This document shows, piece after piece, positions 3,192 to 25,155 of a DNA stretch of 26,211 bases; within the stretch, counting starts at the first letter, position 1, and the number at the start of each line of letters is the position of its first letter. This DNA comes from a virus, in IMG/VR virus record IMGVR_UViG_3300031980_000004, positions 1 through 26,211 of that record, one strand, 5' to 3'. Both the position numbers and the translations under genes were made by a program. The notes beneath the pieces are model-generated. The model made no database searches. It was not told the origin of the DNA and saw only the letters and a program-made list of their open reading frames with translations.

Positions 3192-3235
3192 GTCACAACA
3201 CCGCATCTTCTTTTATCTATATGCAGTGTTGTGAC
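3192..3235 (-). repeat. 44-bp palindromic element, copy 2
   Basis: Perfect 10-bp arms; minus-strand core ATAGATAAAAGAAGA. Middle copy of the cluster after the capsid gene. Confidence 0.95.
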
Positions 3236-3286: not shown

Positions 3287-3330
3287 GTCACAACACGCGA
3301 TCTTCTTTTATTTCTATAGCGTGTTGTGAC
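3287..3330 (-). repeat. 44-bp palindromic element, copy 3
   Basis: Perfect 10-bp arms; minus-strand core ATAGAAATAAAAGAAGA. It begins 12 bases beyond the stop codon of the capsid gene. As RNA the 10-bp stem has a 24-nt loop and is not followed by a U-tract, so it is not a standard terminator. Confidence 0.95.
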
Positions 3331-5355: not shown

Positions 5356-7255
5356 CGATCCGCTCCAGTCTGACGCCGCAGCGACAGCGCGGGTGCGCGG
5401 GCGGTCCGGAACGCCCGCCCCACTCGTCCTCACGCTTGCCGTGCAATGCGCCGCATATCGGGCAGACGCGCTCATCATTCGCGGTCTCCCAAATCATCAC
5501 GTACTCCAGATTATGCTCGGCGCGCATCCCGTCGCGGTACGCCCGCACGCCCGCCGTAGCCGCTTCAGTCGCCGCGGTGATGGCGACGGTCTCGGCGCGC
5601 TTCGCCCCGACGACCGGTTCGATCATCGCAACGAGTTCGGCGCGATCCGCGCCCGGCATCCGTCGCCACGCCGCGACCGCGCGGGCGATGTAGTCGCGCG
5701 TGTACGGATAGAGCAACTCTTCCACCTGGCGGCGCGTCGCTTCCTCAGCCCAATCCGCCAGCAGCGCATCGACGTTGACGGTTACGCCGATCGCTGCGCG
5801 CATCTCGTCTGCGAACAGACGCGCAATCGTCTCGATGTTGCGGCGCATTGCGGGATAGAGCGTCTCGCTGAACATCTGCGCCGTAATCTCGTCTGCGCCG
5901 TCGAGCATAACTTGGCGTAATTGCAGAAACGCGCGCTTGAGGTCGCGGTAGAGTTGCACCTCGTGCGGCAGCAGTTCCGGTTCCGCCTCTTTCTTCAGCG
6001 CCTTCGCTTCAATCTCTTCCGGTTCCGCACTTGCCGCGCCGTTGACGCCCGCCAGCCGCAGCGCCGTTCTTACGTCGAGACCGGCAGCGACCGCCTCGCG
6101 CGCTATCGCCAGCCGGTTGCGCAGACGCAGCAGTTCTTGGTCTGCCGCGTCCTCAACGAACTGCGGCAGATCGAGACGTGCGCGGGCTTCGTTCAGTGTG
6201 AGCACCGGCTGTCCGGTGAGGCGCTGGATCGCTTCCGCCTTCTCCAACTCCTCATTCTGCACGGCGTCGATCCGCGCCTCGTTGCAGCGTAACATCTGAT
6301 TGTACGCCGCGAAGTGCGGTTGCAGCGTCGCCGCGACCTCGCGCGCGCGGGCGAGGATTGTCAGAAGAATGAACGTCTGGTAATCGCGCCGCGCGGTCGC
6401 GTAGTTGCTCGCGCTGCTGAAGACAACCGACATCGGCACTTGAAACGCGGTGAGCATCAGTTCCGCCGCGCGCTGGAGCAGTTCCGGCTGCACTGCGTCG
6501 GAGAGCGTATCCCCCAGCGTGACGGTTTTGATCTCGCTCGACAGCGCGAGGTGCCGGAATGCGTTGCGGATGCCGCTGACGAGTTGGCGCAGCCACTGCT
6601 CAAAGCGCGAACGTTCCGCATCGGTCGGGCGCTGGGCGAACATCCACACCGTCGGGCGCACAGCGCCGCGCTCGAAGTACGCCGTCTGGTACCGTTCGGC
6701 AGCCAGCAGCGCGCGGGCTTGGGTCAGCGCCGTCGTCACCAGCCCGACGCCGGGTTCGACTTCGCTTCTTACAGACGGTTCCCAGAGGTGCAGCAGTTCC
6801 GTCTCCGGCTCTAACCGGATTTCGGTGTTGTTCGCGCGTCGAACAAACCCGACCAGCCCGCGCTTTGCGTCGGTGATCGGGGTGATGGTGCGGGGGTGCA
6901 GACGACGCAACCCAAGCGGCGCGGCGGGATCGCGCAGCAGATACGCCGCGCCGTACAGACACAGATCGATCTCAATTCCGCGAATGAGCGCCGCCAGTCG
7001 CTCTGCGTCGAATGCGACCAGCGTACCGCGCCGGGTGGTAATTTCCCACGGCAGCGACGCGAGAGCGTTCGCCCGCAACGTCACCGCCGTGCGCACCACC
7101 GCGACGCGCTCATACGCCGTCTCGACATCGACCGCGTCGCCGTCGCCGAATACGCCCGTCCACGCAGAGGGCAGAAAATCCTCCAAGTTGAGCGCTTTGA
7201 TGTCGTAGCGCTCAAACGGCGACAACACGAGTTGTGCAGTCGTTCTAGATATCAA
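5345..7255 (-). CDS. Portal protein fused to a MuF-type head morphogenesis domain
   Basis: 636 aa. Residues 1-400 follow the HK97-type portal pattern: VAVVRTAVTLRANALASLPW, a DLCLYGAAYLLRD strand, LEPETELLHLW, and the clip/stem region ELMLTAFQVPMSVVFSSASN. Residues about 430-636 are a helical minor head domain ending in WETANDERVCPICGALHG (589-606) and PPAHPRCRCGVRLERID, the Cys/His signature of MuF-like proteins. Portal forms the DNA entry pore; MuF proteins are minor head components. Start is probably TTG at 7255 with GAGG 6 nt upstream, overlapping the terminase end by 11 bases. Separate portal and MuF genes are more common. Confidence 0.88.
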   Translation of the reverse strand: MISRTTAQLVLSPFERYDIKALNLEDFLPSAWTGVFGDGDAVDVETAYERVAVVRTAVTLRANALASLPWEITTRRGTLVAFDAERLAALIRGIEIDLCLYGAAYLLRDPAAPLGLRRLHPRTITPITDAKRGLVGFVRRANNTEIRLEPETELLHLWEPSVRSEVEPGVGLVTTALTQARALLAAERYQTAYFERGAVRPTVWMFAQRPTDAERSRFEQWLRQLVSGIRNAFRHLALSSEIKTVTLGDTLSDAVQPELLQRAAELMLTAFQVPMSVVFSSASNYATARRDYQTFILLTILARAREVAATLQPHFAAYNQMLRCNEARIDAVQNEELEKAEAIQRLTGQPVLTLNEARARLDLPQFVEDAADQELLRLRNRLAIAREAVAAGLDVRTALRLAGVNGAASAEPEEIEAKALKKEAEPELLPHEVQLYRDLKRAFLQLRQVMLDGADEITAQMFSETLYPAMRRNIETIARLFADEMRAAIGVTVNVDALLADWAEEATRRQVEELLYPYTRDYIARAVAAWRRMPGADRAELVAMIEPVVGAKRAETVAITAATEAATAGVRAYRDGMRAEHNLEYVMIWETANDERVCPICGALHGKREDEWGGRSGPPAHPRCRCGVRLERIDAG

Positions 7256-8456
7256 ACAGCACCTCTGCGCTTCGCGACGCGCCCCAGACCGCGAGCGCGA
7301 GCGCGATCACGCCGTCGTCGTGACACCCCTCCGGCGCGCTGTAGCGTGCGCGACCGGACGCGGAAATATCGACGCTGAACATCTCTAACTCGTTGAGCAG
7401 CCACTCCAGCGCGGGCAGCGTAATCGTTCGCTGCTCCAGCGTCAGCGCGAGCGTGTCGATGAGCAGCGCTTTTGATGCAACCGTCGTCGTAAACGCCTGC
7501 ACCGGCAGCCCGGCGCGCTGCAACTCTTCGATGTTCGGCGCGCCGATACTGTTCGCTTCCGCAATCACCGCGCCGGAACCGTTGCGCTGCCAGAACGTAA
7601 CCAGCGCGCGGCGTTGGGTTGCAAAATCTACATCAACTAATCGTTCTACGTCCACCACACACCGCGTCTGCGGATCGAGCGCGGCAAATACCGTTGCGTC
7701 CTCGTACCGTCCCCAGTCAACGCCGATCACCGCCGCCTCGCCGCTGCGCGCAATCTCACCGACGCAAGCGCGCACCCCGCGGAACACCGCGCCGCCGTCG
7801 TCGAGAAACTCGGCGTCCAACTCTTGGCGCGCGGCGCGCTCGGTCATCGCGGACCGCAGCAGCGCAATATCCGCCGGATCGAGACGCGGGTTGTCACTTG
7901 TTGAACGCCGGATCGTCGCCCAGCGCGGGTCGTCAAGCGCGCTCTGGTGGATACGCCAGAAGTCGCCGCGTCCCTTCGGCGTCCCGGCGAGAACCGCTCT
8001 GCCGCGCCGGTCGAGCAGCGCGGGGATCAGATTTTCGCGCCAGATTGTTTCGAGATTGCGCACCAGCCCCGCCTCGTCCACCACAATCAAATCGTACCCG
8101 CGCGACCGTCCGGCGTCCTCGTTGTCCAACGACCAGAACTCAACGCGCCCGCCGGTTGTCGTGTCAACGCGCCGCTCCGCTTTGTATTCCACCGCTGCCG
8201 GTGCGCGCAGCACGCGCCGTACTTGTTCCCAGACCGGCAACATCAGTTTGTAGGTCGGCGCGAAATACCCGACCGTCTGCCGGTGCACCAGCGCGGCTTC
8301 GGTGAGCATTCGCGCCAATAAGTGCGATTTCCCCCAGCGCCGCCCCGCGCGCAGGTGCACAAACCGCGCGCTTCTGGTCTGTTCCGCAACGGCGCGCTGG
8401 TCGGCGTGGAGGTGTGGAAGTCGAACCTCATACCGTTTTGACGAACGCCGCCTCAT
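7245..8456 (-). CDS. Terminase large subunit
   Basis: 403 aa. ATPase domain: Walker A-like GRRWGKSH (38-45), Walker B LIVVDEAG (123-130) and coupling motif LAGTPKG (156-162). RNase H-like nuclease domain: first acidic residue in IGVDWGRYEDATVF (Asp247), second in IAEANSIGAPNIEEL (Glu300) and third in CHDDGVIALALAV (380-381). The protein pumps DNA into proheads and cuts the concatemer. The ATG at 8456 lies inside the preceding gene and has no clear ribosome binding site, so translation is probably coupled. It is followed directly by the portal gene. Confidence 0.93.
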   Translation of the reverse strand: MRRRSSKRYEVRLPHLHADQRAVAEQTRSARFVHLRAGRRWGKSHLLARMLTEAALVHRQTVGYFAPTYKLMLPVWEQVRRVLRAPAAVEYKAERRVDTTTGGRVEFWSLDNEDAGRSRGYDLIVVDEAGLVRNLETIWRENLIPALLDRRGRAVLAGTPKGRGDFWRIHQSALDDPRWATIRRSTSDNPRLDPADIALLRSAMTERAARQELDAEFLDDGGAVFRGVRACVGEIARSGEAAVIGVDWGRYEDATVFAALDPQTRCVVDVERLVDVDFATQRRALVTFWQRNGSGAVIAEANSIGAPNIEELQRAGLPVQAFTTTVASKALLIDTLALTLEQRTITLPALEWLLNELEMFSVDISASGRARYSAPEGCHDDGVIALALAVWGASRSAEVLFDI

Positions 8457-8631
8457 CGACGATCACCAGTACGCTCTGATCGGCGTTCGGTTGCTCATCG
8501 AACTGCGACAGAAACAGCCGCGCCGCAGCGACGCGCGCGCTTGCCGGCTCGTTGTCGTTGACAACGATCATAAACAACGCGCGCAACACCGCAGCGCGGG
8601 CTTCGTCTGTCAGCAGTTCGTCTACGGTCAT
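8428..8631 (-). CDS. Small terminase-subunit-like protein
   Basis: 67 aa, starting MTVDELLTDEARAAVLRALF and containing NEPASARVAAARLFLSQFDE, a helix common to small terminase subunits. It lies directly upstream of the large terminase gene and overlaps it by 29 bases. It is short for the family and lacks an obvious helix-turn-helix DNA-binding domain, so it may be a reduced form or an unrelated helper. Its ATG overlaps the stop of the upstream holin-like gene as ATGA. Confidence 0.5.
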   Translation of the reverse strand: MTVDELLTDEARAAVLRALFMIVVNDNEPASARVAAARLFLSQFDEQPNADQSVLVIVDEAAFVKTV

Positions 8632-8855
8632 TTGTACTTGTAGTACTTCCGAGCGATAGCCTCAGCCTCCGCTTCGGTCAGCGGGATGTGATACGAGACG
8701 ACGTAGCCGAAGATGACCGCCAGCGCCGACTGCACCTCGGCGGGCAACTCGATCCCCGCGAACTCGCGCAGCGCCCAGGTGAGAATGATGACGGTCGCGG
8801 CGGCGAGTGCGCCAAAGGTCACCTTGTCCAACGGTTGCGAAAAGGGAAGGTTCAC
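8628..8855 (-). CDS. Small membrane protein, holin-like
   Basis: 75 aa from a GTG at 8855 with GGAGG 7 nt upstream. The frame is open further upstream through two palindromic elements, but the ribosome binding site marks this start. Two hydrophobic segments can be seen: FGALAAATVIILTWAL (about 14-29) and VQSALAVIFGYVVSYHIP (about 41-58), followed by a charged Glu/Ala/Lys tail ending KYYKYK. Size, two membrane segments and a charged tail fit a holin, the inner-membrane pore that triggers lysis, but no endolysin is visible nearby. Another membrane role is possible. Confidence 0.5.
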   Translation of the reverse strand: MNLPFSQPLDKVTFGALAAATVIILTWALREFAGIELPAEVQSALAVIFGYVVSYHIPLTEAEAEAIARKYYKYK

Positions 8856-8967
8856 GTGATGCCCTCCTACTCTTCTCTCTTCAGCGGGGCGCTGTGTTCC
8901 CCTCACTTTAATTGTACAGCAAAAGCCCCGCATTTTCGTACACCAGATCGCGGCGCGGGCGCGGGGC

Positions 8968-9011
8968 GTCACAACACCTGCTTCTCTTTTATTTCTATAG
9001 AGTGTTGTGAC
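8968..9011 (-). repeat. 44-bp palindromic element, copy 4
   Basis: Perfect 10-bp arms; minus-strand core ATAGAAATAAAAGAGAAG. It lies 113 bases upstream of the holin-like start. The V-T-T-type frame is open through it but is not thought to be translated here. Confidence 0.95.
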
Positions 9012-9074
9012 AGCGCTGATAAACCAGCAGCGGGCGGGGGAGTACTCCATTCGGGTGAGGCGACGATCGGGACT

Positions 9075-9118
9075 GTCACAACACCGCGTATAAATAAAAG
9101 AAGATCGAGTGTTGTGAC
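9075..9118 (+). repeat. 44-bp palindromic element, copy 5 (reversed)
   Basis: Perfect 10-bp arms; here the core ATAAATAAAAGAAGA reads on the plus strand. It is followed at 9120-9139 by CTGCTGAACAAACAGAAACC, which also follows copy 6, and then by the hairpin of a minus-strand terminator. Confidence 0.95.
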
Positions 9119-9137
9119 GCTGCTGAACAAACAGAAA

Positions 9138-9157
9138 CCCCGCCGGCATCGGCGGGG
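9138..9157 (-). terminator. Rho-independent terminator after the 9180-9518 gene
   Basis: Perfect 8-bp stem CCCCGCCG/CGGCGGGG with a 4-nt loop; on the minus strand it is followed by TTTCTGTTTG. It lies 23 bases past the stop codon at 9180. Confidence 0.75.
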
Positions 9158-9179
9158 TGTGGGGACAGCGGGGCGGGGG

Positions 9180-9518
9180 TTATTCGATTCCCAGCGCGTA
9201 CTCTATCAACCACCCGCGCCCGCCCGCACGCGCTTCGTCGAGCGAGTTGTAGCGTTCATAATAGTAGTACGTCCGCGGGGACGGGTCAGCAGCGGGGTGG
9301 GGGTCAACTTCCCACTCGATCTCCTGGACGTAGACGGCTCCGTCCTCACACTCGAAGACGAGGATGAAGCCGCCGTTCGTTGTGTGGGGGTTCCACGCCC
9401 GCCCGTTGTCCCAAGCGTAGGGACGACCAAGAGGACGCGCCTTGACGCGCACCCGCTCGTAGTCCGCAACCCCGTCCTTCGGAACGGGCCCGTTGATGAT
9501 CGTAACGTCTCGAAACAT
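9180..9518 (-). CDS. Small unknown protein, distant member of the W-x-G / D-G-R paralogous family
   Basis: 112 aa from the ATG at 9518 with GGAGG 6 nt upstream; a GTG three bases earlier is too close to the ribosome binding site. It contains FILVFECEDGAVYVQEIEWEVD and a late NSLDEARAGGRGWLIEYALG, which resemble the FYRxxDGRxxxHxxRW and Leu-Glu-Asp-Ala segments of five other small proteins in this window. The family and its function are unknown to me. It is the last gene of a short operon with the 9531-9740 gene and is followed by a terminator. Confidence 0.7.
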   Translation of the reverse strand: MFRDVTIINGPVPKDGVADYERVRVKARPLGRPYAWDNGRAWNPHTTNGGFILVFECEDGAVYVQEIEWEVDPHPAADPSPRTYYYYERYNSLDEARAGGRGWLIEYALGIE

Positions 9519-9530
9519 CACTTTCCTCCT

Positions 9531-9740
9531 CTACTCGCCGCGCCGCGCGTCCTCGTACCGCAACTGTTCCACCAGCCGCCGCGCGTCCTCAACATACGCG
9601 CGCCAGCCGACGGGCTGTCCGCGGTACTCGACCGCGTAGTCGCGCGTCTCGCGGTCGAAGACGATCTTATAATCCGCGCCTTCAGCAATAACGATCTCGC
9701 GCTCGGGGCGCGGCTTTGGTGCAGAGCGTCGCTTGGGCAT
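9531..9740 (-). CDS. Small basic protein of unknown function
   Basis: 69 aa; ATG at 9740 after AGGAG with 8-nt spacing. Basic N-terminus MPKRRSAPKPRPEREI, then a short strand-turn-strand unit YKIVFDRETRDYAVEYRGQ and a helix ending ARRLVEQLRYEDARRGE. I do not recognise it. It has its own consensus promoter at 9776-9804, back to back with the promoter of the plus-strand gene at 9915, and is followed closely by the 9180-9518 gene in the same operon. Confidence 0.7.
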   Translation of the reverse strand: MPKRRSAPKPRPEREIVIAEGADYKIVFDRETRDYAVEYRGQPVGWRAYVEDARRLVEQLRYEDARRGE

Positions 9741-9775
9741 TAGTGGTCTCCTTTCGCGTAATCGACTACGCTGCT

Positions 9776-9804
9776 AGTATACCACGCGCGCGCCGGTCTG
9801 TCAA
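9776..9804 (-). promoter_or_regulatory. Sigma70-type promoter for the 9740-9180 operon
   Basis: On the minus strand TTGACA (9804-9799), 17-bp spacer, TATACT (9781-9776). Six bases further comes GTAGTCGATTAC, related to the start-site motif of the plus-strand cassettes. Confidence 0.85.
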
Positions 9805-9841
9805 GTCCGAAAATTCGCGGTGAAATCTCGAAAATTGGGTA

Positions 9842-9870
9842 TTGACAACCGGCGCGGGGTGTGGTATAGT
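9842..9870 (+). promoter_or_regulatory. Sigma70-type promoter for the 9915 gene
   Basis: TTGACA (9842-9847), 17-bp spacer, TATAGT (9865-9870), then ATAACC and GTAATCGATAATCAC (9877-9891). Back to back with the minus-strand promoter; the -35 boxes are 37 bases apart. Confidence 0.88.
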
Positions 9871-9914
9871 ATAACCGTAATCGATAATCACTGTATCAAG
9901 AGGAGGAACACAAA

Positions 9915-10208
9915 ATGGAGAAGTACACAGTCTGGAGCGGAACTCGAACTTGGCTGCCCGGCGACAGCGGGTACGAGAAGTACGAAATCATCGGTGAAGA
10001 ACTGGCTGTTTGGGAAGACGCAGGTTACGACTCCGGGAGCACATACTATGTGTACCGGACAGAAAACGGGATCGTCATTCACCGCGTTCGCTGGACGAGC
10101 ACTCTTGGGGACCCGCACTACGGAGAGGTCTTCCGGTTCAGCAACCTTGAGGAAGCGGCGCAGAATGACGAGTTGCGACAAGCACTGAAAGATATGCGCC
10201 TCATCTAA
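9915..10208 (+). CDS. Small acidic protein, W-x-G / D-G-R paralogous family
   Basis: 97 aa; ATG at 9915 after GAGGAGG. Layout: YTVWSGTRTW near the N-terminus, YYVYRTENGIVIHRVRW in the middle, and GEVFRFSNLEEAAQND near the C-terminus. The same three blocks occur in proteins at 11427, 11842, 12333 and 14195. Acidic and aromatic, no membrane segment. It is a free-standing plus-strand cassette with its own promoter and terminator between two minus-strand operons, as morons are. Function unknown; such small early proteins often act on host factors, but nothing in the sequence shows this. Confidence 0.85.
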   Translation: MEKYTVWSGTRTWLPGDSGYEKYEIIGEELAVWEDAGYDSGSTYYVYRTENGIVIHRVRWTSTLGDPHYGEVFRFSNLEEAAQNDELRQALKDMRLI

Positions 10209-10227
10209 TCAACGAACCCGACCGAAC

Positions 10228-10259
10228 CCCCGCGCCTCACAAGCGCGGGGTTTTCTTTT
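10228..10259 (+). terminator. Rho-independent terminator of the 9915 gene
   Basis: 8-bp GC stem CCCCGCGC/GCGCGGGG (10228-10235 and 10243-10250) with a 7-nt loop and the T-rich tail TTTTCTTTT. Confidence 0.88.
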
Positions 10260-10288
10260 CCCCGCCGTCGCCAAGCCCGCGAACTGTT

Positions 10289-10332
10289 GTCACAACACGC
10301 TGTATAAATAAAAGAGAATGATGTGTTGTGAC
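10289..10332 (+). repeat. 44-bp palindromic element, copy 6 (reversed)
   Basis: Perfect 10-bp arms; core ATAAATAAAAGAGAA on the plus strand. It lies in the convergent gap between the 9915 gene and the minus-strand gene ending at 10394. Bases 10334-10353 repeat the 20-base flank seen after copy 5. Confidence 0.95.
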
Positions 10333-10349
10333 ACTGCTGAACAAACAGA

Positions 10350-10375
10350 AACCGCCAGGCGCGCGTCCGGCGGTT
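10350..10375 (-). terminator. Probable terminator of the 11783-10394 gene group
   Basis: Stem AACCGCC/GGCGGTT (10350-10356 and 10369-10375) with a GC-rich loop; on the minus strand it is followed by TCTGTTTG. It lies 19 bases past the stop codon at 10394. Same arrangement as the terminator next to copy 5. Confidence 0.6.
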
Positions 10376-10393
10376 CTGGAGTTCGCGTTGGCG

Positions 10394-11065
10394 CTAGTTG
10401 TGCTTGATGAATGGGGTGACGGCAAAGGTGTAACCCCATTGGTCGCCGAACGCCAGCCACCCGCTGCTGCTTCGCCGCACGCTCAGACGCGAGTTCTTTC
10501 CGAACAGCCGCAACCCTTTCCGCAACTGGGCGACGCTGTACCAATGTTCATCGTCGATTTCCTTAGGGCGGAAGAGTTCACCGCCGTTGCGCGGGTCATC
10601 TACCAGCGCAACGTAGTCCTTCGCGCTGGCTTCTTTGACCGTCTTCAGTCGGGGATTCTCAACGATCTGCACCCACCCGCGGCTCTCGTCGTGCAAAAAC
10701 CCAAGCATCCGCGCGACCGGCGCTCGCGGGCAGTAGAATTCCGGCAGCGACACATCACAGTACTCGCCCGCGACTTCCCCAACGTTCTCCTCATACCGCG
10801 TGGTCTGCGCGGTCGCGGTCACGCGGTTTCCGTCAACCTCGATGCTCCCGATCCACGTCGCCTCCGCCAGCGCCTCAAGCACCTTCGCGGCTTTCGGCGA
10901 GATCGCGCCTTCGCCGCGAAGGAACTCACCGCTGAACGTCTTGGCGACCAACATCACCCCGTCTGTCGCCGCCGCTACGCCGTCATCGACGTGAACGCCG
11001 GAGAATGGCGTCGCCTGAATGTCGAGGGCGACGCGGAGAAAGTTGGAAAGTTCTGTGCTGGACAT
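10394..11065 (-). CDS. Unknown protein, possibly sliding-clamp-like
   Basis: 223 aa. I chose the ATG at 11065 (MSSTELSNFLRVAL) because GGAA lies 7-8 nt upstream and the longer frame starts inside the preceding gene. The segment FSGVHVDDGVAAATDGVMLV (about residues 20-39) matches the recurrent strand-turn A-T-D-G pattern of DnaN-type beta clamp domains and their phage relatives, and the rest alternates strands and helices. A full bacterial clamp is about 370 aa, so this would be a reduced or two-domain version. The fit is suggestive only. It ends the minus-strand group 11783-10394 and is followed by a terminator. Confidence 0.55.
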   Translation of the reverse strand: MSSTELSNFLRVALDIQATPFSGVHVDDGVAAATDGVMLVAKTFSGEFLRGEGAISPKAAKVLEALAEATWIGSIEVDGNRVTATAQTTRYEENVGEVAGEYCDVSLPEFYCPRAPVARMLGFLHDESRGWVQIVENPRLKTVKEASAKDYVALVDDPRNGGELFRPKEIDDEHWYSVAQLRKGLRLFGKNSRLSVRRSSSGWLAFGDQWGYTFAVTPFIKHN

Positions 11066-11103
11066 AGTGTTCTTCCTTTCTATGTAAACGTCACCGTCGC
11101 CGT

Positions 11104-11430
11104 CTACCTCGCCAGCGCCCACACGCATCTGGCGAGCGCTTCAGAAAGCGTCGCCGCGTCTGTCTCGTACTGCGCAAGCGTGCCCAGACCTTTGTTCCAG
11201 TACGCGACCTCAATGCGCCAACCGCCTTCGCGTCGCTCGATCTCGACGCAGACGACGCGCGACAACGCGAACAGCGCGTCGAGCGGCTTGTACGCAGCGG
11301 GAGAAACATCAAGCGCGAATACGTCGATGGCGTCGCTTGGGCGGGCGACGGTGATGATCCGGTCGCACTCGCCCGGCTCGTACAGCACTGCGCAGATCGC
11401 GGTTGGGGTGCGTTCAAAAGCGATCTTCAT
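11104..11430 (-). CDS. Small protein of unknown function
   Basis: 108 aa from the ATG at 11430, which overlaps the upstream stop as ATGA and lies just behind GAGGAGGAGG. The sequence is mixed alpha/beta with AICAVLYEPGECDRIITVA, VVCVEIERREGGWRIEVAYW and a C-terminal helix TLSEALARCVWALAR. I do not recognise it. Its tight coupling to the 11427-11783 paralogue and to the clamp-like gene downstream suggests a shared transcript. It lacks the D-G-R block of the paralogous family. Confidence 0.7.
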   Translation of the reverse strand: MKIAFERTPTAICAVLYEPGECDRIITVARPSDAIDVFALDVSPAAYKPLDALFALSRVVCVEIERREGGWRIEVAYWNKGLGTLAQYETDAATLSEALARCVWALAR

Positions 11431-11783
11431 TCCTCCTCCTCGTACCGGCTTAGCCACTCATCAAGTTCCAGCGTCGGCGCATCATACGCGCCGATCCGCA
11501 CAAGATCGTCGCGCCAGCCGCGCCGCGCGGCGTCGTCGAGGTCGGCGTACACCGACACTACCCCGTAATCGACGCCGCCCTTCTCCCAGTCGCCGTAGCG
11601 ATGCTCGGCGACGACAAGACGCCCGTCATACAGCCGGTAGAACTCCCGTTCGTCCGTTCGGTCTTCGTCGACCTCAACGACGAGCGAACCGAGAGGCTCG
11701 CCGTCGAACTCGATCCAGACGAACTGTGAAACGTCTCTGTTGCCGTGGACGCCTCGCCAACCGTGCCAAACCCGTACCCGCAT
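11427..11783 (-). CDS. Small acidic protein, W-x-G / D-G-R paralogous family
   Basis: 118 aa; ATG at 11783 after AAAGGAGG. It begins MRVRVWHGWRGVHG, continues FVWIEFDGEPLGSLVVEVDE, then EFYRLYDGRLVVAEHRYGDWE and VSVYADLDDAARRGW, the same block order as the genes at 9915, 11842, 12333 and 14195. Compared with them it has a C-terminal extension rich in Glu ending RYEEEE. Function unknown. It is separated from the 11842 paralogue by a hairpin (11806-11833), yet lies on the same strand, so the two look like a tandem duplication. Confidence 0.75.
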   Translation of the reverse strand: MRVRVWHGWRGVHGNRDVSQFVWIEFDGEPLGSLVVEVDEDRTDEREFYRLYDGRLVVAEHRYGDWEKGGVDYGVVSVYADLDDAARRGWRDDLVRIGAYDAPTLELDEWLSRYEEEE

Positions 11784-11805
11784 TTTGAACCTCCTTTACA
11801 ACGAA

Positions 11806-11833
11806 GGGACGCCCCGACGAACCGGAGCGTCCC
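11806..11833 (-). terminator. Hairpin between two paralogous genes, possible terminator
   Basis: Inverted repeat GGGACGC (11806-11812) / GCGTCCC (11827-11833) with further pairing inside (CCG/CGG). On the minus strand it is followed by TTCGTTGT, a poor U-tract, so it may be an attenuator or processing site rather than a full terminator. Confidence 0.5.
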
Positions 11834-11841
11834 CGAACTGA

Positions 11842-12162
11842 TCAACCCAGCGTCACTGTGTGCGGCGGGATGAGACCCGCCTGTTCCAACTCCCACCGGA
11901 ATGCGTCCGTCGCATCTTCAATAGATGGAAAAACGAAAACATCTGCACGAGTTTCTTCGCCCTCCCACCGACTCCACCTCTCCTGATGGGCGATTATACG
12001 CCCATCTGAAGAACGAAAAAACGTTGTCTCTACGCCGCGGGAGTCGTACTCTTCCCAACAGACTCCCAAGCACTCACCGTCAAACTCAACGTAAGCGACG
12101 GTCTTATATGTATTGCCGCGCACGACACGCTTGGCTCCTTTCCAGATGTTGATCGTAGCCAT
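11842..12162 (-). CDS. Small acidic protein, W-x-G / D-G-R paralogous family
   Basis: 106 aa; ATG at 12162 after GGGAGG. It begins MATINIWKGAKRVVRGN and has AYVEFDGECLGVCWEEYD, FFRSSDGRIIAHQERWSRW and ADVFVFPSIEDATDAFRWE. The N-terminus is nearly that of the divergently transcribed neighbour at 12333 (MATISIWRGYRHW), so the pair around the shared promoter region probably arose by duplication and inversion. No catalytic motif, signal peptide or membrane segment. It has its own promoter at 12199-12227. Confidence 0.8.
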   Translation of the reverse strand: MATINIWKGAKRVVRGNTYKTVAYVEFDGECLGVCWEEYDSRGVETTFFRSSDGRIIAHQERWSRWEGEETRADVFVFPSIEDATDAFRWELEQAGLIPPHTVTLG

Positions 12163-12198
12163 TTTTGACCTCCCTTAGTAATTATCTATCACGCCCCT

Positions 12199-12227
12199 AC
12201 TTTACCACACCTCGCGCTGGTTGTCAA
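12199..12227 (-). promoter_or_regulatory. Sigma70-type promoter for the 12162 gene
   Basis: Minus strand TTGACA (12227-12222), 17-bp spacer, TAAAGT (12204-12199), then AGGGGC and GTGATAGATAATTAC (12192-12178), a version of the shared start-site motif. Confidence 0.75.
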
Positions 12228-12263
12228 GCGGGAAATCCGCCGGAATTTCCGCGAAATTGGGAC

Positions 12264-12292
12264 TTGACAAATCGCGGCGTGTGCGGTATAGT
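12264..12292 (+). promoter_or_regulatory. Sigma70-type promoter for the 12333 gene
   Basis: TTGACA (12264-12269), 17-bp spacer, TATAGT (12287-12292), then AGAGAC and GTAATCAATAACCAC (12299-12313). Back to back with the promoter of the 12162 gene. Confidence 0.88.
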
Positions 12293-12332
12293 AGAGACGT
12301 AATCAATAACCACACACAAGGAGGCAACCAAA

Positions 12333-12617
12333 ATGGCAACAATCTCTATCTGGCGAGGCTACCGGCACTGGAACTGGGACGAAGAGAACGATTACGAGAC
12401 CGTCACCTACGAGGACGCGGAGGAAATCGGCGCGGTTCGGTTTGAAGATGAAAACGGCGATATTCAGTATCGCATAATCCGGTGGTGCGAAGGTATCGTC
12501 GTCTTCTTCGTGAAACGCGAAGGGCACTACTGCGAAGCAGAAATCTTTGAGTACCCCGATCTCGAAGCCGCCGCCAAAGACTACGCTTTTGTCCTTCGCA
12601 AAGCGGGCGTCATCTAG
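12333..12617 (+). CDS. Small acidic protein, W-x-G / D-G-R paralogous family
   Basis: 94 aa; ATG at 12333 after AAGGAGG. Layout: MATISIWRGYRHWNW, GAVRFEDENGDIQYRIIRW, then AEIFEYPDLEAAAKDYAFVLRKAGVI. The C-terminal block is the clearest of the family and recalls SNLEEAAQND in the 9915 protein and PSIEDATDAF in the 11842 protein. Strongly acidic. It is a complete promoter-gene-terminator cassette on the plus strand. Function unknown. Confidence 0.85.
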   Translation: MATISIWRGYRHWNWDEENDYETVTYEDAEEIGAVRFEDENGDIQYRIIRWCEGIVVFFVKREGHYCEAEIFEYPDLEAAAKDYAFVLRKAGVI

Positions 12618-12640
12618 ACGACCCGCCGCACCCATCAAGC

Positions 12641-12671
12641 CCCCGTCCGGCAACGGATGGGGTTTCTTATT
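12641..12671 (+). terminator. Rho-independent terminator of the 12333 gene
   Basis: 9-bp stem CCCCGTCCG/CGGATGGGG (12641-12649 and 12654-12662, one G-T pair) with the 4-nt loop GCAA and the tail TTTCTTATT. It ends within the stop region of the minus-strand gene ending at 12667. Confidence 0.85.
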
Positions 12672-13323
12672 TCCCCTTGCACTTCCCGCAATACCCGTAC
12701 CGCAGCGCAGCCGCGTACTGCTGCTGCTTCGCCAGCGCCGCACCGCAGTGCGGACACCGGTACGACGCAGTGCGCTGCGTATGCGCCGTATGCGAAGCCG
12801 TATGCGAAGCCGTATGCGCCGTATGCGAAGCCGTATGCGCCGTATGATGCGCCGTATTCGTATCCGTATACGACGTATGCTGCGTCGTATGCGAAGCCGT
12901 ATGCGACGCATCCGGCTGCGGATGCGAACCGCTGTGCGTATGCAGCAACGTCGCAAGCGTATACGCCAGCGTCGCCAGTGGTGCGCTCTCCAGCACCGAC
13001 AGCGCCAGCAGCAACCAGTCGAACGTTGCGAGAAACTGCGCCGCGCTGCTCAGCCCCGTCGGTACGCGCGCAGCGTAGTCCGCCAAAACGTTGAGCGTAA
13101 TCGCAGTCAGCACCGCCGCCCGCGCCACGCGCGACGCCAACCGTTGGCGCTGTTGGTCTGCGAACACAGCGAACGCCAGCGACAGATACGCCAACTCTAT
13201 TCCGACCGCCGCCAGCCAGCCCGCAGCGTCCCCGCGCGTCGGCGCAAGCGCGCGCTGGACGCCCAGCGCGGACGGGGCGCTCAGCAACAGAACCGCCAGC
13301 GTTGCGAGAATGCGGAACTTCAC
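12667..13323 (-). CDS. Membrane protein with His/Thr repeat tail and C-terminal zinc ribbon
   Basis: 218 aa from a GTG at 13323, with GGAG 8 nt upstream. Residues 1-25 are hydrophobic with AxG-type ends and look like a signal peptide or first membrane segment. More hydrophobic segments follow (AVGIELAYLSLAFAVFA; AVLTAITLNVLADYAA; FDWLLLALSVL; LATLAYTLATLL), the layout of DUF2637-like phage and plasmid membrane proteins. Residues about 130-185 are a low-complexity repeat of Ser-His-Thr-Ala units, which may bind metal. The end, YRCPHCGAAL...YGYCGKCKGK, is a C-x2-C...C-x2-C zinc ribbon. A palindromic element lies directly before its ribosome binding site. Role unknown. Confidence 0.75.
   Translation of the reverse strand: MKFRILATLAVLLLSAPSALGVQRALAPTRGDAAGWLAAVGIELAYLSLAFAVFADQQRQRLASRVARAAVLTAITLNVLADYAARVPTGLSSAAQFLATFDWLLLALSVLESAPLATLAYTLATLLHTHSGSHPQPDASHTASHTTQHTSYTDTNTAHHTAHTASHTAHTASHTASHTAHTQRTASYRCPHCGAALAKQQQYAAALRYGYCGKCKGK
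12775..12945 (-). repeat. Degenerate tandem repeat encoding Ser-His-Thr-Ala units
   Basis: The plus strand repeats CCGTATGCGAAG and the shorter CCGTATGCG many times with variants; on the coding strand these give Ala-Ser-His-Thr and Ala-His-Thr. Nearly every third codon is a CAT or CAC. The region is likely prone to slippage and copy-number change. Confidence 0.9.
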
Positions 13324-13341
13324 GAGTACATCTCCTTTACC

Positions 13342-13385
13342 GTCACAACATCTCTTCTTCTTTTAATTAAGAGAAGTGTTGTGAC
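13342..13385 (-). repeat. 44-bp palindromic element, copy 7
   Basis: GTCACAACAT...AAGTGTTGTGAC arrangement: one arm has T for C at its inner end (9 of 10 pairs). The minus-strand core is AATTAAAAGAAGA, the most divergent of the family. It is followed on the minus strand by GGTAAAGGAG, the ribosome binding site of the 13323 gene. Confidence 0.9.
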
Positions 13386-13405
13386 AGACGCCACTCCCGA
13401 ACCCG

Positions 13406-14128
13406 CTAAATGTCGCAGAACCCCTCCTCACAGAAATCCGCTTGCTCTTCCGCCGCGTCCGCACGCAACACAACTATCGCGTCTTTCCCCCGCTTCCGCC
13501 GCTCCTCGTTGATGCGCCGCTCCAGTTCCTCACCCTTCTCGCGCAGCGCCGGGTATTGTCTGAGCAACTCAGATTGACTGCGGGCGCTGCGGTACGGACA
13601 GAACCAACACGAAGATTTTGGCGGCGTTGCAAGCCCGGCGCGTTCGAGGATCGCGCGGCAGTCGTTGCGGGTAAGGCGCTCGTCTACCAGCGGGTAGAGA
13701 TGCTCAATACGTTTTGCATCTGATTCTCGCATCCGGTGGAACTCGTCTACGCTGATCCCCAGCATCAATCCGATCCGCTCGCGTCGGTACTTGTCGTACA
13801 GATAGCGTCGGATCGGTTCCACCTTGTACTGCCGCGTGCACTGGCGCTTCAACATAAACGATCCGTCGCGAGAGCGCCACGGCGCGGGCGTGAACGCCGG
13901 GCGCGCAAGCATATCTCCGTACAGATCGCGCTGTATAACCGTAATGTCGCGCCGGTGCGTTTCCCGCAGCCAGCGCGCGAAATGCTTGACGTACTCGCGC
14001 GTTGCGGGCGACTCTGCGTCCAGCAGATCGACGTGGACGATCTCATCTATCCGCCACCCGCGCTGCATCGCCAGTACGACGAGCGCCGTACTCTGCACCC
14101 CGCCGCCGTATGAGATCACCGTTCGCAC
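13406..14128 (-). CDS. PP-loop ATP pyrophosphatase-family enzyme (PAPS-reductase-like)
   Basis: 240 aa from a GTG at 14128, with AAGGAGG 5 nt upstream; the open frame extends back into palindromic copy 8, but the ribosome binding site excludes that start. The P-loop SYGGGVQSTAL (6-16) is the adenylation site of the adenine nucleotide alpha-hydrolase superfamily. Later motifs CTRQYKVEPIRRYL (97-110), GISVDEFHRM and PPKSSCWFCPYRS (169-181) match a phage and actinobacterial group annotated as phosphoadenosine phosphosulfate reductase family. Cys97, Cys157, Cys174 and Cys177 could bind zinc or an iron-sulfur cluster. The substrate is unknown; sulfur chemistry on nucleic acid or sulfate assimilation are possible. 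Confidence 0.85.
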   Translation of the reverse strand: MRTVISYGGGVQSTALVVLAMQRGWRIDEIVHVDLLDAESPATREYVKHFARWLRETHRRDITVIQRDLYGDMLARPAFTPAPWRSRDGSFMLKRQCTRQYKVEPIRRYLYDKYRRERIGLMLGISVDEFHRMRESDAKRIEHLYPLVDERLTRNDCRAILERAGLATPPKSSCWFCPYRSARSQSELLRQYPALREKGEELERRINEERRKRGKDAIVVLRADAAEEQADFCEEGFCDI

Positions 14129-14144
14129 AACATCCTCCTTCCCC

Positions 14145-14188
14145 GTCACAACACGCATTCTTCTTTTATTTCTATAGCGTGTTGTGAC
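14145..14188 (-). repeat. 44-bp palindromic element, copy 8
   Basis: Perfect 10-bp arms; minus-strand core ATAGAAATAAAAGAAGAA. It starts 6 bases beyond the stop of the 14195 gene and is followed immediately by GGGGAAGGAGG, the ribosome binding site of the PP-loop gene. Confidence 0.95.
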
Positions 14189-14194
14189 AGACGT

Positions 14195-14461
14195 TTACCG
14201 CTGTTCCCTAACGCCCTCGCCCGCGTCCAGCGCGGGGAGGATGTACGCCTCTGCGATATCAATTCCGTCATCAAGGAGGGATAGTCGCATCTGATGCACC
14301 GCCACGCGCCCGTCCTCGGTGCGGTAGAGCACACAGCGCTCTACCCACTCGTCCGCGCGCGCCACATCAACGACGGCGAGGAACTCGCCGACAAACCGGA
14401 CACACTGCGTACTCTGAAACGTATTCCCCCGCACCCCGCACCAGAGTTCGGTTTCCTCCAC
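14195..14461 (-). CDS. Small acidic protein, W-x-G / D-G-R paralogous family
   Basis: 88 aa from a GTG at 14461, with AAGGAGG 6 nt upstream. It has ELWCGVRGNTFQSTQ, VRFVGEFLAVVDVARADEW, CVLYRTEDGRVAVHQMRLS and AEAYILPALDAGEG, the block order of the genes at 9915, 11427, 11842 and 12333. It is the only member inside the operon of the FtsK-like ATPase, whose stop lies 15 bases upstream. Function unknown. Confidence 0.75.
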   Translation of the reverse strand: MEETELWCGVRGNTFQSTQCVRFVGEFLAVVDVARADEWVERCVLYRTEDGRVAVHQMRLSLLDDGIDIAEAYILPALDAGEGVREQR

Positions 14462-14476
14462 TTCGCGCCTCCTTTC

Positions 14477-16327
14477 TCATTCCTCGCTCTTCAACCGCGC
14501 AGCCCGCGCCCAGTCGTCGTTGCGGAACCGCAGCCCCAGCGCCCGCGCCTGCTCTCGACTGACGCCCGCGCGTTGGAGCGCCGCCAGCGCCGCCAGCAGC
14601 GCATCGTCCCCATCCGTCGGGGACGGATCGATGCCCGTCCCAAGGCGTTCTGAAGCCCTATCCGCCTCTTCAGCCCGTCCCAAGGCTTGCTGATGCTCTG
14701 GGACGGGACTAGGGGCGTTTTGCGGCAACACAGCGCCTTGGGACGGCGCGATGTCGTCTCCGTCCCCGCGCCCAGAAAACCCCCCAAAATCCCCGATTTC
14801 GGCGCTTTTTGCGGGTTCGGGACGGTTGGGGACGGGGACGGAAGAAACCCGTCCCGGCGCATTCTGAAGCCTTGGGACGGCTCCGCCCCCGTCCCCGGGC
14901 ATCAGAAAGCCTTGGGACGGTACAATTTCGTCCCGCGGCTTGCTGACGCCTTGGGACGGGTCAACCCCCGTCCCCGCTCTTGCTGATGCCAAATCCTCCC
15001 CCTCGTTCCGTCCCCGCGCATCAGAAAGCGTCGGGACGGGGGTCTGCTCATCAGCCGTCACAACACCCGCTTCTTCTTTATTTCTATACGGTGTTGTGAC
15101 AGCGCTTGAGAGCAACATCTCCAACAGCGCCGCATCGTTGCGCGCGTTGATCAGCCCGTCGAAGTCTCCGACCAACGCCGGCGTGCGGACGAGAAACTGC
15201 TCGTTGTTGTGACGCACAACGAACAACCCGCGCTCGCCGGGCGGCGGCGGCAGTTGCGACGGTCGGTACAGCAGCGCCTTCGGATCGCGCACCCCCAGCG
15301 CCGGCGCGTCCTGGCTTCCGTCCACCAGCGCGCCGGAGATCAGCGTCGAGAGGTTCATTCGCCACTCCAGCCGCTTGCCGGTGGGCGTCTGCATCGAGAC
15401 GATCACCCTAATCCCCAACGCCCGCGCTTTGCTGACCAGCGCGATCAGTAAACGTTCCGTCTCATCAACGGCATCAATAATATCCGTCGCCAACACCACC
15501 AGCAGCGGTAGCGGATCGGGCGCGGTCCGGTTGTACTCCTCGACGCTGCGCACCCCGGCGCTCAGCAACAGACCGAACCGGCGCTTTGCTTCTTCGTTGA
15601 TTGCCGCGATTGCGCTCAGTATTCGCTGCTGCCCTTCGTCGCCGTAACCGCCCGCCGGCGGGAAAAGCATCTGCGGCAGCCGCGCGAGGTTCGGCGTCAG
15701 CCAGTCGCCCTTGCCGTCGAGGATCGCCCAGCGCACCGCCGTCTCGTTGAGCAGCGCCGCGAACCACAGCCGCAGCAGGTGATCCTTCCCGCAGCCGCTC
15801 GTGCCGTACAGCCCGATGTGCAGCGCGTCGCTGCCGAAATCCAGCCAGCGGAAGCGTCCGGTCTGGTCGCGCCCCAGCGGAACCGCGAACCGCGCCGGAC
15901 GCGGGTCGGCGGGGTTGAACAGTGATGGGGAAGGAAGCGTCACAACACTTGCTTCTCTTTTATTTATATGAGGTGTTGTGACGGCGGACGCTGATGTTGT
16001 GACAGAAGCGGGGGCTGTGGTGGTAGTCGCAGCCCCGGCGGTCGCGGGCGTTTGCTCATCAACCGTCACAGCATCCTCTTCTTCTTTATTTATACGCGGT
16101 GTTGTGACACCCCCGACAAGCGCCGTCGGCAGCAAGCCGCGCTGTTCGAGTTGCCGCTCAACCCGATACGCGGCGTCGTTCAGTGCGTGGTACGCGCGCA
16201 CCACAGCGTCGCGGTTGGTCGCCGCCGCCAGCGCGAGGAACGCGAACACTCCGGCGACCGGATCAACGCTGAACGCCAGCGCGACGCCGAACAACATCAA
16301 AAACACCGTTTTGCCGCTGACGTTCAC
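14477..16327 (-). CDS. FtsK/HerA-like membrane-anchored DNA-pumping ATPase with three in-frame palindromic elements
   Basis: 616 aa from a GTG at 16327, which overlaps the upstream stop as GTGA behind GGAGGAGG. Residues 7-37 hold one or two membrane segments. The ATPase domain has Walker A GLYGTSGCGKDHLL (172-185), an ILDGKGDWL strand, a Walker B-like LLVVLATDIIDAVDE (275-289) and the sensor-like SMQTPTGKR (311-319). A Pro/Gly-rich linker (about 430-560) with repeated PSQG units follows, then a C-terminal winged-helix-like FtsK gamma domain (LLAALAALQRAGVSREQARA). Residues 74-88, 116-130 and 410-424 are encoded by palindromic elements and lie between the recognisable domains. Likely roles are DNA translocation or conjugation-like coupling. 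Confidence 0.8.
   Translation of the reverse strand: MNVSGKTVFLMLFGVALAFSVDPVAGVFAFLALAAATNRDAVVRAYHALNDAAYRVERQLEQRGLLPTALVGGVTTPRINKEEEDAVTVDEQTPATAGAATTTTAPASVTTSASAVTTPHINKREASVVTLPSPSLFNPADPRPARFAVPLGRDQTGRFRWLDFGSDALHIGLYGTSGCGKDHLLRLWFAALLNETAVRWAILDGKGDWLTPNLARLPQMLFPPAGGYGDEGQQRILSAIAAINEEAKRRFGLLLSAGVRSVEEYNRTAPDPLPLLVVLATDIIDAVDETERLLIALVSKARALGIRVIVSMQTPTGKRLEWRMNLSTLISGALVDGSQDAPALGVRDPKALLYRPSQLPPPPGERGLFVVRHNNEQFLVRTPALVGDFDGLINARNDAALLEMLLSSAVTTPYRNKEEAGVVTADEQTPVPTLSDARGRNEGEDLASARAGTGVDPSQGVSKPRDEIVPSQGFLMPGDGGGAVPRLQNAPGRVSSVPVPNRPEPAKSAEIGDFGGFSGRGDGDDIAPSQGAVLPQNAPSPVPEHQQALGRAEEADRASERLGTGIDPSPTDGDDALLAALAALQRAGVSREQARALGLRFRNDDWARAARLKSEE
14634..15040 (-). repeat. Cluster of a 22-bp GC-rich repeat in the linker of the FtsK-like gene
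   Basis: About eight copies of a sequence like GCATCAGAAAGCCTTGGGAC, continued by GG, in both orientations: plus strand at 14731-14748 (partial), 14859-14880, 14899-14920, 14938-14959, 14976-14990 (partial) and 15018-15040; inverted at 14634-14655 and 14674-14695. On the coding strand the plus-oriented copies give P-S-Q-G-F-L-M-P-like peptides. Confidence 0.85.
15057..15100 (-). repeat. 44-bp palindromic element, copy 9 (in frame inside the FtsK-like gene)
   Basis: Perfect 10-bp arms; minus-strand core ATAGAAATAAAGAAGAAG. Translated as VTTPYRNKEEAGVVT, residues 410-424, just after the ATPase domain and before the linker; the flank adds ADEQTP. Confidence 0.95.
15939..15982 (-). repeat. 44-bp palindromic element, copy 10 (in frame inside the FtsK-like gene)
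   Basis: Perfect 10-bp arms; minus-strand core ATATAAATAAAAGAGAAG. Translated as VTTPHINKREASVVT, residues 116-130. An extra half arm (ATGTTGTGAC, 15994-16003) lies 11 bases away and encodes another Val-Thr-Thr. Confidence 0.95.
16065..16108 (-). repeat. 44-bp palindromic element, copy 11 (in frame inside the FtsK-like gene)
   Basis: One arm is GTGTTGTGAC and the other GTCACAGCAT (two mismatches), so the pairing is imperfect. Minus-strand core ATAAATAAAGAAGAAG. Translated as VTTPRINKEEEDAVT, residues 74-88, followed by VDEQTP as after copy 9. Confidence 0.92.
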
Positions 16328-16962
16328 CGCCCGCCTCCTCCGCCGCCGGGCGCTCTGACATTCGCCGCGAGCAGCAGCGCCGTTACTGCGCACAGAATGG
16401 TGAGGAACTCAAACGCGAACGATGCGGCAAACGTCCAGCCGACTTTTGCCAGCACCGCCGCTGCTCCTTCAAGCGCGTCCGGCAACGGTGCGAACAGTCC
16501 GCCGCGCTGCCACACGTCAACCAGAGCGACGGCTTCGCGATAATCGGTCACAATATCGAAGAAAATGAAGAAATACACCATCCACTGGAGCGCTTTGATG
16601 TCGCGCTGCACCAGCCCTACCGTCGCCAACTCGATCAGCGTCGGCAGCAGTGTGAGGAACAGCGCAAACAGCGTCAGCCATTCCGCACCCGTCGCCAATA
16701 CGTCTGCAGCAATCGGCTGAATAAATCTCCACGTCGGTACGAGGTCGTAGCGGTACGCCAAAGCGCCGAAGACATACGCTAGGATGAAGAAGCACGCCGA
16801 CGCCACGCCCGCCGGAACGCCCCGCACCCCGCGCGCCCAGTCGACCGCGCGGCGCAGGTTGTCGCTCAGATCGAGCGCGCTCAGCAGTCCGTCGGCAACG
16901 TTGCTGTTGACGAGGGCGAGGATGACGCCCCCGGCGATGATCCAGGCGATGAGGTCATTCAT
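16324..16962 (-). CDS. Multi-pass membrane protein, partner of the FtsK-like ATPase
   Basis: 212 aa from the ATG at 16962, overlapping the upstream stop by 8 bases. About five hydrophobic segments: LIAWIIAGGVILALVN, VASACFFILAYVFGALAY, WLTLFALFLTLLPTLIELAT, WMVYFFIFFDIV and a long C-terminal AFEFLTILCAVTALLLAANV. It ends in a Gly-rich stretch. Family unknown. Its stop overlaps the GTG of the FtsK-like gene (GTGA), so the two are translationally coupled, and a shared membrane complex is plausible. It has no signal for a holin or transporter that I recognise. Confidence 0.75.
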   Translation of the reverse strand: MNDLIAWIIAGGVILALVNSNVADGLLSALDLSDNLRRAVDWARGVRGVPAGVASACFFILAYVFGALAYRYDLVPTWRFIQPIAADVLATGAEWLTLFALFLTLLPTLIELATVGLVQRDIKALQWMVYFFIFFDIVTDYREAVALVDVWQRGGLFAPLPDALEGAAAVLAKVGWTFAASFAFEFLTILCAVTALLLAANVRAPGGGGGGR

Positions 16963-17188
16963 AGAGCGTCCACCCCCTCTTGCCGCGTACCCAGCGCTCA
17001 ACGAGGCAGGCTCCGTCTGGAGCCTCGCGCCCCGCCACGTAGCCCAACACCCCGTTCAGGTCGTAGATGACGAACGCGCCCGCCGCGCGCACGTCCAGAT
17101 CGCGCTTCGCGGCGCGCTCGAAACGCCCGACCGCGTGCGCCCACTCTTCCAACTCTTGATGTGGAATAGGCTCAATCTTCCACCACAT
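16955..17188 (-). CDS. Small protein of unknown function
   Basis: 77 aa; ATG at 17188 after AGGAAGG. Starts MWWKIEPIPHQELEEWAHAV, contains AAGAFVIYDLNGVLGYVAGRE and ends VERWVRGKRGWTLYE. Possibly a small alpha/beta domain; not recognised. It overlaps the gene before it by 17 bases and the membrane protein gene after it by 8 bases, so it belongs to a tightly packed operon. Confidence 0.7.
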   Translation of the reverse strand: MWWKIEPIPHQELEEWAHAVGRFERAAKRDLDVRAAGAFVIYDLNGVLGYVAGREAPDGACLVERWVRGKRGWTLYE

Positions 17189-17372
17189 TTTCGCCTTCCT
17201 TTCTCATCTTTCGCAGCGTCTTCCTCAAGCGCTCCGCTTCCAGCGCCGGCATCACCCAACGCGGGCGTTTCCGTCTCGCGCCTGCGCGCGCCAGCAGCAC
17301 TGCAACCCTCACCGCCTGCAGGCGACGGAAGGCGGTGAAGCGGCGGTACAGACGATACATACTCTTGTTCAT
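17172..17372 (-). CDS. Small, highly basic protein of unknown function
   Basis: 66 aa from the ATG at 17372, which overlaps the upstream stop as ATGA with GGAG 5 nt before it. The longer open frame upstream is a shadow. Rich in Arg and Lys (MYRLYRRFTAFRRLQAVRV; ERLRKTLRKMRKEG), with a helical central part and an acidic end (ENVVED). It may bind nucleic acid, but this is only inferred from charge. Confidence 0.65.
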   Translation of the reverse strand: MNKSMYRLYRRFTAFRRLQAVRVAVLLARAGARRKRPRWVMPALEAERLRKTLRKMRKEGENVVED

Positions 17373-17803
17373 TTCCGCTCCAGTACTCGCGCCAGCATCA
17401 GCACCACCGTTTCGTGAACGTATCCCCACCGCAGACACACCGCCGCCAGATCGCGGTACGGTTGCCGCAGACGCTTCGCGGCGGAGTGGAGATCGGAATA
17501 GACGGTCTGTACGTCCTCGTCCAGACGCCAGCACAGCCCGAGACGCGCTTCCGGCGCTGCGCCGGGATCGATATACATCTCCCCGACTGCTGCGTTCTTG
17601 TTGATCTCCGGAATGTGGTAACGCAGAAAATATCGGATGAACGTCGGTCGATACCCAACTTTTAGCATCAACGCCGCGACCGCCCGCGCGTCGTTGCGCA
17701 GTTTGTGCCGCGTCCAGCGCAGCAGTCGCGTCTCGTCTATCTCTGCGTCGCGTAGACGTTCGGCGAAGAACGACATCGCGGCGCGCAGATCGTCGTCACG
17801 CAT
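17369..17803 (-). CDS. Helical protein of unknown function
   Basis: 144 aa from the ATG at 17803 (MRDDDLRAAMSFFAERL), overlapping the preceding stop by 8 bases. Mostly helical; the middle has YRPTFIRYFLRYHIPEINKN and the end RDLAAVCLRWGYVHETVVLMLARVLERK. The repeated Arg/Trp/Tyr helices are reminiscent of DNA-associated proteins, but no family is recognised. It lies between the second nuclease gene and the small basic protein, in one overlapping gene chain. Confidence 0.7.
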   Translation of the reverse strand: MRDDDLRAAMSFFAERLRDAEIDETRLLRWTRHKLRNDARAVAALMLKVGYRPTFIRYFLRYHIPEINKNAAVGEMYIDPGAAPEARLGLCWRLDEDVQTVYSDLHSAAKRLRQPYRDLAAVCLRWGYVHETVVLMLARVLERK

Positions 17804-18675: not shown

Positions 18676-18721
18676 ATTCGGGTTCCTCTCCTTCCTTTCT
18701 TACTGCTTCGGCACAATCGCC

Positions 18722-19414: not shown

Positions 19415-19415
19415 C

Positions 19416-22128: not shown

Positions 22129-22137
22129 CGCCGCCCC

Positions 22138-25120: not shown

Positions 25121-25155
25121 GGGCTTTCGGCGGGATTTTGGTTGAGATTCGGCTC

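Follow-up and report, generated by a model that had tools for sequence, protein, structure and literature searches.

Results

Genes of the phage fragment

The DNA analysed here comprises positions 1–26,211 of IMG/VR virus record IMGVR_UViG_3300031980_000004 (26,211 nucleotides, hereafter the window), and the stretch under study lies at positions 9,180–14,461. Judged by its large genes, the window is a tailed-phage fragment: it encodes a major head protein (3342–4499), a portal (5345–7255), the terminase large subunit (TerL; 7245–8456), an FtsK-like ATPase (14477–16393), an exonuclease (18722–19456), a DNA polymerase (19416–21719) and a primase/helicase-like protein (22138–25044). A terminase-based scan yielded 59 loci, about 55 of which are close relatives with 83–96% protein identity. 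The order of the backbone genes is constant in these relatives, namely the FtsK-like gene, a PAPS-reductase-like gene, a membrane protein gene, gene X (window position 11104), a clamp-like gene (10394), a gene for a 69-aa protein (9531), a holin-like gene and the terminase gene.

Several backbone genes have features of their own. The PAPS-reductase-like protein (13406–14158, minus strand) matches the PADLOC model SspD for DNA phosphorothioation (E 2.5e-14), and its gene is possibly one for sulfur-based DNA modification or anti-restriction. The membrane-type protein (12667–13323, minus strand) contains a long HTASHTAHT repeat, for which a short DNA repeat codes; a pair of CxxC motifs at its C-terminus resembles a zinc ribbon. 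The clamp-like gene is present as a side-by-side duplicate in two relatives (L022:1924–3339 and L024:6612–8043), and the 69-aa protein (9531–9740, minus strand) occurs in 33 contigs of the phage group. The 3′ portion of the FtsK-like gene (14633–15039) carries CCGTCCC...GGGACGG repeats in a tandem-like array that recurs about every 40 nt.

Dispersed over the window are 12 copies of a 44-nt element, GTCACAACAC-N24-GTGTTGTGAC, which is constant in length and has an asymmetric T-rich centre (3110–3153, 3192–3235, 3287–3330, 8968–9011, 9075–9118, 10289–10332, 13342–13385, 14145–14188, 15057–15100, 15939–15982, 16065–16108 and 22160–22203). The relatives contain 232 copies, 219 of them exactly 44 nt long, and several copies lie in frame within the FtsK-like gene (VTTPRINKEEDxVVT). 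An exact-pattern search of the host genome described below found no copy. By its sequence the element looks like a protein-binding site or a mobile palindromic element.

A family of small proteins encoded on both strands

Five small genes of the studied stretch, termed B to F, encode paralogous proteins, as the original prediction had proposed: the open reading frames are present, their products align from end to end, and D is the hub of the family. Member B (9915–10208, plus strand, 97 aa; subgroup of 20 sequences) runs against the main gene strand of the phage. Member D (11842–12162, minus strand, 106 aa) is the protein that was modelled; C (11427–11783, minus strand, 118 aa) lies downstream of it and is probably co-transcribed, and E (12333–12617, plus strand, 94 aa; subgroup of 17 sequences) is divergent from D. 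Member F (14195–14461, minus strand, 88 aa), the most diverged of the five, has a short C-terminus and is located 15 bp behind the FtsK-like gene. When profiles were built with the respective subgroup left out and compared with 232 window ORFs, all five members were recovered (B, E=2.4e-22; C, 6.7e-20; D, 3.7e-27; E, 1e-12; F, 5e-10), and the best of 1000 shuffles per target scored at most 11.1 bits.

Three sequence blocks had been described as common to these proteins. They are right in outline, with positions W7 (98%), G9 (100%), G33 (95%), G54 (89%), H59 (71%) and A84 (90%) conserved when averaged over subgroups, but the F-x-F-P of the C-terminal block is loose. Likewise, the description of the family as acidic fits most subgroups but not all: on one fold, the median net charge of subgroups spans from −15.5 (M) to +8 (M2), a range more readily explained by different partners than by a single common substrate.

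A sixth gene (9180–9521, minus strand, 113 aa, with a possible methionine start at 9518) had been proposed as a more distant relative, and we now regard it as a probable remote member. Its match to the family with a plain HMM is weak (E 0.11; 9–12 bits for the single sequence), which had spoken for a non-member; this was overturned by the structural model presented below and by a profile-profile comparison of its own family of 14 sequences with the main family (probability 91%, E 9.5e-7, 85 collinear columns). A second paralogous family comprising genes 11104, 25220 and 25653 had been suspected but was not supported: an HMM of gene 11104 matched neither of the other two, nor gene 26133, although all three look similar to it by eye.

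Remote homology to EXLDI proteins

Scans of the family against Pfam, PHROGs and PADLOC gave nothing above noise. Matches to DUF1330 and DUF7448 (best E 0.002–0.009, 3–4 of 73 members) were below the curated cut-offs and were treated as chance. Neither a tblastn search of 50,697 phage records with D nor one of phage and plasmid records with a Chloroflexota relative returned a meaningful match, and two further scans of viral contigs with Chloroflexota relatives found none. Genome assemblies contain two stand-alone relatives, both in Chloroflexota MAGs. One of them (L102) lies between a tyrosine-recombinase-like integrase gene and an RHH gene with an AAA ATPase gene (integrase and ATPase assigned by eye), and the other (L103) sits behind an FtsK-like gene; apparently both reside in mobile elements.

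When 400 Chloroflexota genomes were searched blind with the family profile, the hits included proteins that align with the family by their C-terminal half, over the central strands. Two of these hits were checked and, scoring 87 and 92 bits on TIGR04342, proved to be EXLDI proteins. Conversely, TIGR04342 is matched by 24 of 73 family members (best E 2.3e-5; the next model by two members), and a profile-profile comparison of the family with TIGR04342 gave a probability of 92 and an E value of 6.7e-7 over 42 columns. L102 matches this model with E 1.8e-6 and 28.2 bits, just under the curated cut-off of 32 bits, the window members stay below that cut-off with no match at E ≤ 1, and the 9180 family has no detectable homology to EXLDI when compared directly. 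On the strength of these profiles the phage proteins appear to be remotely homologous to the C-terminal domain of EXLDI proteins, with the match spanning the central strands (about 42–51 columns). The earlier statement that no named family applies thus holds for Pfam and PHROGs, but not for NCBIfam, in view of the remote relationship to TIGR04342.

A literature search for the function of EXLDI found no description. The N-terminal head of these proteins reads as a ribbon-helix-helix by eye, and Pfam gave no hit on it. Among the EXLDI genes of 301 Chloroflexota genomes, an ABC-type ATPase motif is located within about 1.5 kb at at least 14 of 17 loci, and ABC transporter domains were confirmed at four loci. 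Based on this architecture and these neighbours, the C-terminal domain most likely represents the effector-sensing or partner-binding half of an exporter-adjacent regulator.

Predicted structure

The AlphaFold2 model of D (pLDDT 95.0, pTM 0.85) consists of five strands followed by a C-terminal helix (strands 2–14, 17–39, 42–51, 56–64 and 71–78; helix 81–94). The model of the 9180 protein (pLDDT 83.9) has strands at 4–15, 18–38, 47–58, 63–72 and 84–91 and helices at 94–99 and 103–109. The order of strands and helix matches in the two proteins, and both models retrieve identical structural neighbours, all of them weak, in alignments that involve the same residues of PARP1. The analysis links an unnamed, multi-copy set of phage proteins to the bacterial EXLDI domain and provides that domain with a confident predicted fold by proxy.

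The best matches among solved structures are the WGR domain of PARP (Z up to 5.4 for D and 5.1 for 9180, 83–90 residues aligned) and PUR-alpha (Z of 5.7 and 4.5, respectively), which share a similar sheet-plus-helix outline with the phage proteins. The lead of these domains for both models and the presence of a clamp-like gene nearby would suit accessory proteins of phage replication or transcription whose WGR-like or PUR/Whirly-like fold binds nucleic acid, be it DNA or RNA, single- or double-stranded. We nevertheless consider this unlikely. The comparison with WGR and PUR gives Z values of 4.5–5.7, which are within noise, at rmsd 2.8–4.8 over 57–90 aligned residues; Foldseek comparison of the model with the PDB and with viral models gave nothing with an E value below 1e-3, and a sequence search of the PDB found no match for the family. 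Furthermore, most family members are strongly acidic, and the DNA-binding part of EXLDI proteins appears to be the other half. In the PARP WGR domain the WxG motif is positioned on a central strand, whereas that of the phage family is on strand 1. Because the matches in structural libraries are within noise, no fold name is claimed.

Subgroups, slots and selection in related phages

The family was collected from 60 contigs with an iterated profile and overlap filtering at a threshold of E<1e-5. This resulted in 105 hits. A clear start could be assigned to 99 of them, and the trimmed sequences form 15 subgroups at 48% identity; the full alignment contains no stretch conserved enough for degenerate-pattern scans, and subgroup alignments served instead. 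The roughly 100 homologues occupy the corresponding place in the related phage contigs, in slots between backbone genes, with one to six per contig in varying combinations, and F follows the FtsK-like gene in eight contigs. Any given subgroup is missing from some contigs in which the backbone is retained; since IMG/VR contigs are fragments, a subgroup missing from a contig may still be present in the phage. The family tree has two old branches with full local support, one of which holds most of the genes opposite to the backbone strand. Profiles and gene order in relatives thus support the initial view of an expanded paralogous family occupying both strands. As the subgroups are common to many phages, the duplications are older than the phage group.

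Within subgroups the median pairwise dN/dS is 0.17–0.42 and no pair exceeds 1, as compared with 0.26–0.27 for the neighbouring genes X, clamp-like and 69-aa and 0.09 for TerL. Values this far below 1 mark the family members as coding, constrained genes. Selection within subgroups is purifying, divergence sits between the old paralogues, and the pairwise comparison gives no indication of positive selection within subgroups. The diversifying duplication proposed earlier therefore holds in part: the family is expanded, but its subgroups are old and positive selection is not supported.

Promoters

In the window, promoters of the type TTGACA-N17-TATA(G/A)T with a common GTGTGGTATAGT end precede the genes at 9915, 12333, 11842 and 9531. 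The near-consensus σ70 promoter of B (TTGACA-N17-TATAGT) is located at 9842–9870 and that of E at 12264–12292 (both plus strand); that of D (12199–12227, minus strand) probably serves C as well, and that of the 69-aa gene (9776–9804, minus strand) probably also the 9180 gene behind it. Separate promoters, as originally predicted, are thus found for B, D and E, i.e. three of the six window genes, but not for C, F and 9180.

About three quarters of the family members in the relatives have a near-consensus σ70 promoter of their own, when at least 10 of 12 consensus bases are required (random positions, 1.3%). It is present in B (20/20), D (15/15), E (16/17) and G (8/8) and in all members of subgroups D2, M, M2, N, K and I, and is absent from F (0/8), J (0/4), most of H and most of C (one of five C orthologues has it). 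The 69-aa gene has such a promoter in 27 of 28 orthologues tested, TerL in none of 47 and the major capsid gene in none of 44. An early promoter class is indicated because the consensus is host-like and absent from packaging and capsid genes, and this promoter type suggests that the family may be expressed early. At the right end of the window (25156–26211, plus strand) the small orphan genes 25220, 25653 and 26133 each lie directly behind a promoter of this kind and are candidates for further early genes.

Host and CRISPR record

When window positions 6300–26211 were compared at the nucleotide level with 400 Chloroflexota genomes, 26 short matches were returned, all in genome G171 (5,801,598-bp contig). 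They cluster at two places (L170 and L171), both of which are CRISPR arrays with 37-nt repeats. At E ≤ 1e-3, matches to the window were obtained for 76 of the 195 spacers in these arrays and matches to the phage group for 95 (about 0.2 expected by chance). That about half of the spacers in the two arrays aim at one phage group is a very strong record of host–phage conflict. Spacers inside family genes include those at 11623–11657 (C), 11856–11886 (D), 12457–12475 (E) and 14349–14380 (F). One of the arrays adjoins type I-B cas genes, whose neighbours include CARF (Csx1-like) and Csx3.

Based on the spacer matches, which indicate the lineage, we infer that the phage host is a Roseiflexus-type bacterium; the name comes partly from context, as G171 is presumably Roseiflexus sp. 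RS-1. In Octopus Spring, Yellowstone, 1175 viral contigs cluster with the Roseiflexus RS-1 genome, and 116 contigs of this cluster have Roseiflexus spacer hits (PMC5017753).

Discussion

The tentative explanation that we favour is that one early-expressed, EXLDI-like binding scaffold has been partitioned among several host or phage targets in the service of host takeover or anti-defence. The six phage proteins would represent stand-alone copies of the EXLDI C-terminal domain with its five β strands and helix. The phage would thus keep the sensing or partner-binding half without the head, in multiple copies and mostly under the control of its strongest early-type promoters. Early in infection each paralogue, with a different surface on the common scaffold, would engage a partner of its own, a protein or ligand of the host (or the phage), and binding might then blunt host control or defence. 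A role in anti-defence or host takeover may reasonably be inferred given the early-type promoters, the accessory slots and the heavy targeting of the phage group by CRISPR spacers; a PADLOC scan, whose models cover defence and not anti-defence, gave no match to the family.

Should EXLDI domains respond to the substrate that the nearby exporter transports, as they may, one would expect the phage proteins to bind small molecules or second messengers, acting as sponges or sensors that sequester a defence signal. Such a function would be in line with the drug-type ABC exporters adjoining EXLDI genes and with the CARF (Csx1-like) and Csx3 proteins beside the array-bearing cas locus, which make cyclic-oligonucleotide signals plausible in this host. 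Yet conservation falls mainly on W, G, F and A rather than on the polar set typical of a shared pocket, and charges vary widely between subgroups, so that we regard ligand binding as improbable.

A phage-internal role could equally be read from the location of the family among FtsK-like, clamp-like and packaging genes. The proteins would then be regulators or assembly and packaging helpers without a host target, dosed by several promoters, and the position of F behind the FtsK-like gene in the eight contigs, as likewise of L103 in a Chloroflexota element, would be explained. This possibility is a slim one, in our opinion, because individual members are dispensable, as seen from contigs that miss any one subgroup yet keep the backbone, and because promoters of the family's type are absent from packaging and capsid genes. 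We do not favour a dominant-negative effect on an EXLDI regulator of the host, as simple competition does not fit a host genome (G171) in which no EXLDI gene is detectable by profile.

The scaffold partitioned among several targets might in a narrower form have been multiplied into inhibitors, one host defence component being assigned to each paralogue, with paralogues swapped as defences change. We give this form a small chance only; conceivable targets would be, for example, the type I-B or the CARF/Csx3-associated CRISPR machinery of Roseiflexus. If true, such an inhibitor set would be the first known function of an EXLDI domain, and we know of no earlier anti-defence repertoire in phages of filamentous anoxygenic phototrophs. 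With about 15 natural variants of the scaffold, the host lineage and the host defence genes in hand, the function is directly testable.

In its layout of small, strong-promoter genes in variable slots, the family resembles anti-defence loci and multi-copy sets of small early proteins in other phages; PHROGs, Pfam and PADLOC offer no match to it. The EXLDI proteins differ from the phage family in several respects: they possess an N-terminal KTIYV... segment, whereas the phage ORFs begin at the WxG strand; they end in E-x-L-D-I, in place of which phage members have AGVI, MRLI or other tails; and their genes adjoin ABC exporters, whereas those of the family are multi-copy phage genes. Common to both, and collinear, are a strand with RF/EF-x-G-x-x-LG, the sequence VYxTxxGxxAVH, a further strand and an SLE/SLD helix, and EXLDI proteins occur in the same phylum as the inferred host of the phage.
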